Below the pieces are notes generated by a model that saw only the letters and a list, made by a program, of their open reading frames with translations, had not been told where the DNA came from and did no database searches. This document shows, piece by piece, positions 39,701 through 48,332 of a DNA stretch of 64,000 nt. Both the position numbers and the translations under genes were made by a program. Source of the stretch: a bacterium (GTDB lineage Bacteria > AUK180); the NCBI GenBank assembly GCA_023144005.1, contig JAGLGN010000005.1, positions 1 to 64,000 of the forward strand. Reading direction: 5' to 3'. Every line of letters begins with the position of its first letter. Position 1 is the stretch's first letter.

Positions 39701-39973
39701 AGTGTACTGTTCCATAAATACTATGTCAATGGAATGTTTAGATTTGAGTCAATTCCAACAAACGATGAGTGCGGCGTACCCTTTGTGGTCCGGAAGCGAA
39801 GAGAGAGGAAGAAATTGATCAAAGATGACATTCCCTTCGGGCTGAAGCTCTTTTTCTGTCTTCTGCGTTGCTCGTTGCTTACATACCGCTGTGGGTATGC
39901 CGCGCTCCTCGCGCCTTGAATACAAATCAAAATAGCATCAGCCATTGTTATGGTATTTATGGAACAGTACACT
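39701..39973 (-). mobile_element. foldback (MITE-like) element, copy 1, complete
   Basis: The 273-bp element has terminal inverted repeats that match for 21 bp without a mismatch (AGTGTACTGTTCCATAAATAC) and then less well through CAATGG. Inner segments also pair, for example GCGCGGCATACCC with GGGTACGCCGCAC, so each arm is about 90 nt. An ~80-codon frame with QRRRQKKSFSP is shared with copies 2 and 3 but has no transposase features. It has inserted inside a composite intergenic repeat: the flanks GTCCCATATC and GTTGGGGT.CGGCG are contiguous at ~5568-5595 (minus strand). A partner transposase must be elsewhere. Confidence 0.85.
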
Positions 39974-46200: not shown

Positions 46201-46486
46201 ATTCTCCTCCTTCTCTGCATTCTATCAAAAAAGTCTGCAAGCACAAAATAGAGGTAAGGTTTTCAGTCCTATTTTAGCTTCTTTTCTCAAGTATCACATT
46301 ATACACAGGACCGGTACCGAAAATGAATTCCCGCACCTTCCAGGGGGTGCCTTCCAGAAATCCCGATAACTCCTCAGGTGAAAAGAAAAGATAGTCGAAC
46401 CATTCTCCTTTGTACATTTTGTAAAGGATTCTTATGGTCGTATGCCCTGCCATCCGTCCTCTGCTTCTATTGAATTCATGATAGTT

Positions 46487-46757
46487 AGTGTTCTGATTCC
46501 TAGATCCGATGATAATGGCTGACGCTATTTTGTTACGGATTCAAGACGCGAGGAGCGCTGCATACCCAACGCGGTATGTAAGCGACGAGCAACGCAGAAG
46601 ACAGAAAAAGAGCTTCAGCCCGGAGGGAACATCATCTTTGGTCAATTTCTTCCTCTCTCTTCGCTTACGGACCACAAAGGTACGCCGCGCTTATTGTTCG
46701 TTGGAATTGACTCAAATCTAAACATTCCATTGTCATCGGATCTAGGAATCAGAACAC
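46487..46757 (+). mobile_element. foldback (MITE-like) element, copy 2, complete
   Basis: The ends GTGTTCTGATTCCTAGATCC at both termini are identical over 25 bp and continue as GATGA[TC]AATGG. The interior matches copies 1 and 3, including the QRRRQKKSFSP frame and the GCGCTGCATACCC / GGTACGCCGCGC inner arms. It interrupts the methyltransferase gene after codon 179 of the reconstructed frame. No clear target duplication is seen. Confidence 0.85.
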
Positions 46758-47170
46758 ATGGTGCTCTTTTTTCTCGGTCTGATATACATTATTCGATTCA
46801 CCTATGATCAATGCTTCTTCAGAGGTTATTTTCGCCAGTTTCTCCAATAATTCTCTGCCCTTTTCGGGAGAGGCCAGAAGCGATAGATTATTTCCCATCA
46901 TTATCACAGTATCAAAGACACCCAAAGAATCACCCATATCGTATACGGAGATCTCACGAATATCTTTAAGGCCCCGCTCTCTGCAGACCTTCACCGCCAA
47001 TGGCGAGTTATCGACACCGACCACTTCATGCCCATTTTGCTGGAGATCCAATGAGAACCTGCCCGCACCGCAGCCGATATCAAGTACTCTGCCATGGGCA
47101 TTATCAATGGCTTTGCGGTTGATCTCACTCCAGTCATTGCGCTCGGAAAAATAGGTAGTCGGTCCGAATA

Positions 47171-47443
47171 AGTGATCTGATCCATAAATACGGGAACAAT
47201 GGCTGATGGTATTTTAATCAGTATTCAAGGAGCAAGGAACGCCGCATACCCACAGCGGTATGTAAGCGACGAGCAACGCAGAAGACAGAAAAAGAGCTTC
47301 AGCCCGAAGGGAATATCATCTTTGGTCAATTTCTTCCTCTCTCTTCGCTTACGGACCACAGAGGGTACGCCACGCTTATTGTTCGTTGGAATTGACTCAA
47401 ATCTAAACATTCCATTGTCACCATATTTATGAATCAGAACACT
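47171..47443 (+). mobile_element. foldback (MITE-like) element, copy 3, complete
   Basis: The ends AGTGATCTGATCCATAAATA and AGTGTTCTGATTCATAAATA (inner direction) match at 18 of 20 positions, and pairing continues to CAATGG. The interior is nearly identical to copies 1 and 2. It interrupts the methyltransferase gene after codon 41. The base at 47443 may belong to the target rather than to the element. Confidence 0.85.
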
Positions 47444-47558
47444 AAAAGCATCAACATATCCGTCGTCCCTCTCAACGATCTCGACCACATCGCGATCACC
47501 ATTATGATAATCCCATATCAAGTGCCCATAGGCATCATTGTCCCAAACACTTCTTTCA

Positions 47559-48332
47559 TTATTCATTCGCAGACTCCCCATTCTGAAAGTTAAACCCGCA
47601 TTTTTTCAATTGCTTTGATATCTTATCCGTCTCAGGATGAAATTGCCCCCACTTTCGAGAAATATGTTCTGTCCATGAATAATTGTCGAAATTAAAGGTC
47701 TCCTTTCTTTCACCGGTCAAGTCGATCATCGCGTCAAGCCGTTTGTAATACTCCTGAGCAAGATAACCCTTATCCATGACATCCATCGCTTCTTCGACAA
47801 CTTCATCATTGAGCTCCTCATATTCATTTTTGAACAAGGTAAAATTCAATGGATATCTGGGCCGTGTCGGGAATATCTCATCAGGTACACCCACGGTCAA
47901 CTGAACAAAAGGAAATACTTTTTGCGGCAGTTTCATTTTTTTATTCAAAGCTGCAGCGTAATATGGAGTATATCCAAGGAAACATGTACCAAAACCCATT
48001 GATTCCGCGGCGAGAACAAGATTCTGCGCAAAATACGAAGCATCCTGTATTCCGAGTATAAATGAATAGAGATCATTAGTGATCCATTCCCAGTTCCGTT
48101 TATCCATGATCCTGGAGAACTTATGCACGTCAACACATATGGTAAAAAGCAACGGAGCTCCTAATGGAAGCTTGCCTTCTGTTTCGTAGACAACAGAATA
48201 CATCTGACCCGCGAATGCCGCGCATTGCGCCGTTTCCACCAGCTGTTCAATGACATTATCTGAGATTTTATCCTTTTTGTACTTTCTCACGGAGCGGTGC
48301 TCCCTCATAAGTTCGATGATTTTATTTTTCAT
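47559..48332 (-). CDS. nitroreductase family protein
   Basis: The 257-residue flavoprotein belongs to the NfsA/NfsB superfamily that reduces nitro or quinone compounds with NAD(P)H. It shows REHRSVRKYKKDKIS near 10-24, the ETAQCAAFAGQMYSV region near 33-47, a QDASYFAQNLVLAAESMGFGTCFLG stretch near 96-120 and TVGVPDE near 147. The C-terminal ~60 residues (WTEHISRKWGQF) match the longer NfsA-like group. A promoter 5 nt before the ATG implies a leaderless transcript. The methyltransferase gene overlaps its stop codon by 8 nt. Confidence 0.9.
   Translation of the reverse strand: MKNKIIELMREHRSVRKYKKDKISDNVIEQLVETAQCAAFAGQMYSVVYETEGKLPLGAPLLFTICVDVHKFSRIMDKRNWEWITNDLYSFILGIQDASYFAQNLVLAAESMGFGTCFLGYTPYYAAALNKKMKLPQKVFPFVQLTVGVPDEIFPTRPRYPLNFTLFKNEYEELNDEVVEEAMDVMDKGYLAQEYYKRLDAMIDLTGERKETFNFDNYSWTEHISRKWGQFHPETDKISKQLKKCGFNFQNGESANE

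Follow-up and report, generated by a model that had tools for sequence, protein, structure and literature searches.

The window, a stretch of 64,000 nucleotides, carries three foldback elements of ~272 bp and one truncated copy (Table 1). Copies 2 and 3 are inserted 412 bp apart in a single minus-strand gene, which they break within positions 46283-47581. The intact homologue is a continuous 242-aa protein in G004, a genome of another genus, and a motif in its sequence suggests that this protein is methyltransferase-like. Both insertions break the gene cleanly, and G004 has it in one piece, as is expected when a MITE enters pre-existing sequence. No close relative was found to have the site empty at the nucleotide level; in G001, the second species of this genus, nothing matches the DNA between copies 2 and 3. 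At the site of the truncated copy, this second species has a longer element (L227). The initial annotation placed the elements at 46487-47443; this span holds copies 2 and 3, but copy 1 lies outside it, at 39701-39973.

Table 1 Foldback elements and gene fragments in the window.
Feature	Position	Strand	Remarks
Copy 1, full element	39701-39973	minus	Ends 21/21 matched; TACTGTTCC end type
3' gene fragment	46283-46495	minus	Residues 171-242 of the G004 homologue, 58% identity
Copy 2, full element	46487-46758	plus	Both arms carry the private end variant CTAGATCC; breaks methyltransferase-like gene
Copy 2 left arm	46488-46518	plus	31 nt
Copy 2 right arm	46727-46757	plus	31 nt, 97% complementary to left arm
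Middle gene fragment	46761-47171	minus	Residues 36-172 of the G004 homologue, 58% identity
Copy 3, full element	47171-47443	plus	Ends 18/21 matched; second break in the same methyltransferase-like gene
5' gene fragment	47447-47581	minus	ATG at 47581; residues 6-34 of the G004 homologue align within
Truncated copy, B half only	55045-~55131	minus	Right boundary approximate, taken from alignment

The element is abundant in its own genome (G000, 2.67 Mb, 38 contigs), where a search with copy 2, in which 40 of 125 candidates were scored, gave at least 64 matches at E<=0.001, and where the core motif has 82 matches. The second species (G001, 160 contigs) has 62 matches to the element. Neither the element core nor the end pattern had a match in three other genera of the family, and an exact-pattern scan of viral contigs gave no match to the element. 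An Rfam search of the window returned rRNA and tRNA only, the element matching no Rfam family. Both genomes are draft, metagenome-derived assemblies of uncultured bacteria, and our collection of copies, drawn from stretches around pattern matches only, is incomplete. Because many contigs of the own genome start or stop inside an element (for example C13, C14, C20, C24, C26, C28 and C36), the true copy number is probably higher.

The two ends of a copy are inverted over ~21-31 bp (RGTGNTCTGATTCATAAATAC ends). In copy 1 each end reads AGTGTACTGTTCCATAAATAC (21/21), in copy 2 each reads GTGTTCTGATTCCTAGATCC, and the ends of copy 3 are, as first described, slightly unlike each other. The observation that ends differ between copies and match within a copy is therefore upheld in the window, and genome-wide the match is real but partial. 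The interiors of the three window copies had been called nearly identical; they are only 90-91% identical, compared with 67-86% for the end 21-mers. For the 272-bp class in the own genome, the identity between the two ends of a copy was 18.08/21 (48 pairs), compared with 15.88 +/- 0.25 when permuted. Removal of four mis-nested array pairs, nine repeat-family members and six near-identical end pairs reduced the set stepwise to 44, 35 and 29 copies, with two repeat families represented by one member each. Own-end identity was then 17.97/21, compared with 16.53 +/- 0.21 after re-pairing, and none of 5000 shuffles reached 17.97. Elements with other interiors gave 17.04 versus 15.84 +/- 0.25 (28 pairs; 0/5000). 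Some of these statistics take copies as independent, after redundancy reduction. Between copies, left-end and right-end distances gave a Mantel r of 0.13 (p 0.14; 29 copies).

Such a pattern might reflect subfamily structure alone, in which lineages with different ends would have interiors alike through recent common descent, with no exchange. Two major end types, TTCTGATTC and TACTGTTCC, do recur, and shuffling within end types removes part of the excess. The rest of it persists, however (17.97 versus 17.19 +/- 0.17; 0/5000). End and interior distances are also uncorrelated across the 29 copies (Mantel r 0.04, p 0.35), and interiors differ at insertion sites shared by the two species (see below). 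We regard subfamily structure alone as very unlikely.

Covariation of the arms, which the initial annotation had pointed out, is real and is concentrated in the outer stem of a consensus fold of 30 copies. There, 15 of 56 pairs are changed on both sides, 13 in the terminal arms and 2 in the interior. Both this gathering of compensatory pairs and the conserved hairpins of the interior would be consistent with selection on the ends to pair with each other, whether in RNA or in cruciform DNA. The mismatches do not support that proposal: of the 126 arm mismatches in 48 pairs, scored along the A-to-B strand, G-U-type changes account for 17 and A-C-type for 28, giving no excess of G-U, and most (81) are transversions. 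Neither covariation with G-U intermediates nor a match to a known RNA family, by which a structured RNA would be recognised, was found for the element. The ends also diverge between species about as the flanks do, and only a loose scan gave a terminator-like site, one per window copy. Nothing in the mismatch pattern points to a selected RNA stem, and we consider this explanation extremely unlikely.

Another way in which the arms might be kept alike is copying of one from the other, through quasipalindrome correction, a template switch within a hairpin, or copying through a hairpin as the element transposes. Variants private to single copies argue for it. When 130 pairs were reduced to 70 non-redundant ones, rare letters were matched in both arms at 17 positions, compared with 3.1 expected by re-pairing (maximum 10 in 2000), and the end variant of copy 2, CTGATTCCTAGATCCG, is absent elsewhere among the 324 loci compared. 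Homogenisation of arms and inversion of spacers by template switching between inverted repeats have been described (PMC8604942). However, the matched letters make up only 34 of the 144 rare end letters in these 70 pairs, the remainder being one-sided.

Insertions shared by the two species show how the ends change afterwards. At nine of them, the two ends were recognised in each genome; shared sites with a single end were treated apart, and C4:20324 versus L228 was left out because the whole region is rearranged. Across the nine, 359 of 378 end positions are identical and 19 differ (11 left, 8 right). This end divergence about equals that of the flanks, most of which are 88-99% identical; two low flank values, 0.53 and 0.82, reflect other differences beside the element. 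A mirrored change in both arms was seen at one locus only (C20:57901-58155), together with a replaced interior. The other eight show none, and arm mismatches persist in both species, as at C15:62537, where the arms are 15/21 matched in both and no end position differs between species. With mismatches inherited unrepaired and a single mirrored change, the ends therefore mostly vary independently after insertion, the behaviour that the initial annotation had set against its own proposal. Thus, arms usually drift singly, without correction on this time scale. Arm-to-arm copying, as suggested at first, is rare at these loci; the private variants leave it as a possible origin of the match. As the process that keeps the arms alike, we judge it possible but unlikely.

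The interiors at the shared insertions were compared in the same way. At C4:8410 and C20:57901, they are unrelated between species (identity 0.41 and 0.44, with no significant match); at C20:56642, identity is 0.74 and the middle is replaced; and at C15:62537 and C20:30617, the interior is longer in one species. The four remaining loci have interior identities of 0.87-0.98. At eight of the nine, at least one of the two species has an interior that resembles another copy more than it resembles its orthologue; the C2:13570 interior, for example, is 96% identical to a copy at another site versus 87% to its orthologue. One-ended shared sites gave similar results, the end being kept with another interior at C17/L308, C26/L277 and C35:191809/L288, and with a partly matching interior at C30/L225. 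Inversion is seen in a flank-matched repeat with both ends read in 10 copies (8 own, 2 second species; three further rows have no right end read and are outside the 10), where the interior is A-first in four and B-first in six. Whichever way it lies, ...ATACGAT keeps to the GAGAAT side and ...ATAAGAT to the opposite side, with one exception on each (ATATGAT on the first, ATAGGAT on the second).

Swapped interiors could in principle be assembly chimeras of a short repeat, since the genomes are draft, metagenome-derived assemblies with many contigs ending inside elements. A chimeric interior is expected to be ~100% identical to its donor, but only two pairs among 48 copies have interiors at least 98% identical, and both pairs also have flanks in common, as larger duplicates would. 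The contig breaks at elements suggest that the assembler stopped there and did not misjoin. As each interior generally differs from those of other copies (the median identity to the nearest interior is 92.7%), we think chimeric assembly very improbable. The same median suggests that most donors are not recent, or that interiors are mosaic.

Several sites carry arrays of the form A(A(AB)B)B. In L117, the best end partners are A1:B3, A2:B2 and A3:B1. The outer A prefers its nested partner, the outer B, in L105, L080 and L136; it also pairs best with the outer B in L077, partly tied, and the pairing is tied or not decisive in L071, L231 and L221. The array junction falls at the same element position each time (GTAAGYRAY / CAACGCAGAAG), and the second species carries just the simple form at C15:62537. 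The nested end pairing suggests that an older copy has a single hot spot near its centre, into which further elements insert. Unbalanced arrays (AAB, ABB) are compatible with exchanges that break within the interior.

Other arrangements were seen alongside. Four elements of G000 have the same ends around wholly different interiors of 71-397 bp (C24:23658-24054, L156; C26:47828-47971, L158; C13:63343-63560, L149; C35:8489-8559, L174), and some elements of this group are built of recurring modules such as CGTTCACGAGTGAACGAGGTACGAGG. At L164:1652-2942, two end-like sites 1.3 kb apart surround a 229-aa ORF, the second end being weak (score 16). The left flank of L224, compared with C2_12900, contains a separate ~170-bp insertion within another imperfect palindrome, GGGACATGTCGTACGCC...GTCTGTCCC, and this palindrome recurs near elements.

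Taken together, we consider it fairly likely that the copies belong to a MITE-like family whose loci each retain the end pair fixed at insertion, and that recombination or template switching by way of the arms exchanges or inverts the interiors. A non-autonomous foldback copy would insert with ends that already match each other; we infer this insertion to occur by transposition, as no transposase with these ends was found. The end pair would then stay with its locus and drift like the flanking DNA, one arm per change, as observed at the shared sites. The interior could be replaced from another copy, gain or lose nested units, or come to lie inverted, all of them outcomes seen here, by way of the homologous inverted arms. 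Exchange would proceed by homologous recombination, gene conversion or template switching, with the arms supplying the homology for the recombination or gap repair that brings in spacers from other sites, and would rarely reset both arms at once. With ends kept by the locus and interiors exchanged, copies therefore differ at their ends, match within a copy and have interiors in common. The matching ends of a founder may come from transposition of sources with matching ends, from arm copying, or from both; a pure founder model explains the private both-arm variants (17 versus 3.1) only if their sources are lost or unsampled.

A further proposal, which we find doubtful, is that each site has stationary docking ports in its inverted ends, through which interior cassettes are swapped from a genome-wide pool in either orientation, with no dedicated integrase, and that each swap can re-copy one arm onto the other through a hairpin. 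If so, the ends would be both locus barcodes and exchange machinery. Paired changes in inverted repeats are usually taken as selection for RNA or DNA pairing; the shared-site comparison suggests that founder ends combined with interior exchange can give the same pattern. The two species thus provide a natural test bed for the evolution of short inverted repeats by recombination and template switching in bacteria, and in trees of such elements the ends and flanks are usable and the interiors are not.

Short length, terminal inverted repeats and many copies (the 272-bp class, at least 64 own-genome matches) place the family close to MITEs. The sign of a target-site duplication is weak: T stands just before 221 of 371 ends, compared with 28% T in the flanks, and TA lies beside both ends in 13 of 74 pairs, beside one end in 45 and beside neither in 16. 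No DDE_3 (IS630-type) transposase was found in the own genome, no DDE_Tnp_1 transposase in the own or the same-genus genome, and no transposase-bearing end pair was recognised among the stretches compared. No autonomous transposon of the genome was found to have these ends in common, and the family is therefore termed MITE-like only. Five Y1_Tnp (RAYT-like) matches occur in the own genome; in the flanks of the two of these five loci examined, the end motif was not above the threshold of 15 (best 11.9 and 7.3), so that a RAYT gene flanked by the motif, as in a REPIN/RAYT system, was not found at these two. A literature search, which was not exhaustive, returned no account of bacterial MITEs whose interiors are replaced while the ends stay in place.

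Several known systems resemble this family in part. BOX elements of Streptococcus pneumoniae are modular (boxA, boxB, boxC) and, like the present elements, have internal units of variable number between fixed ends; in the present family, unlike in BOX, one unit sits inside another, as A(AB)B, and the ends are paired. To our knowledge, the family is unrelated in sequence to the Correia elements of Neisseria. Correia elements are prokaryotic MITEs that are likewise short, high in copy number, bounded by terminal inverted repeats, gene-interrupting and without apparent coding capacity, and their inversion has been reported (PMC10969869). A matched pair of ends private to each copy, the nesting of arrays and the replacement of interiors at shared insertions set the present family apart from Correia elements as portrayed in that review, whose main text does not contain the terms 'nested' and 'gene conversion' (PMC10969869). 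REPINs, which are mobilised by RAYT, also have paired inverted ends that form a hairpin, although with a spacing of ~71 bp, compared with 272 bp for the present element (PMC3116915). Finally, template-switch evolution of inverted repeats (PMC8604942, PMC8794818) predicts both arm homogenisation and spacer inversion, and both occur in the present family, if at a low or moderate rate; spacer replacement from other loci, as found in the present family, goes beyond what that model alone predicts.
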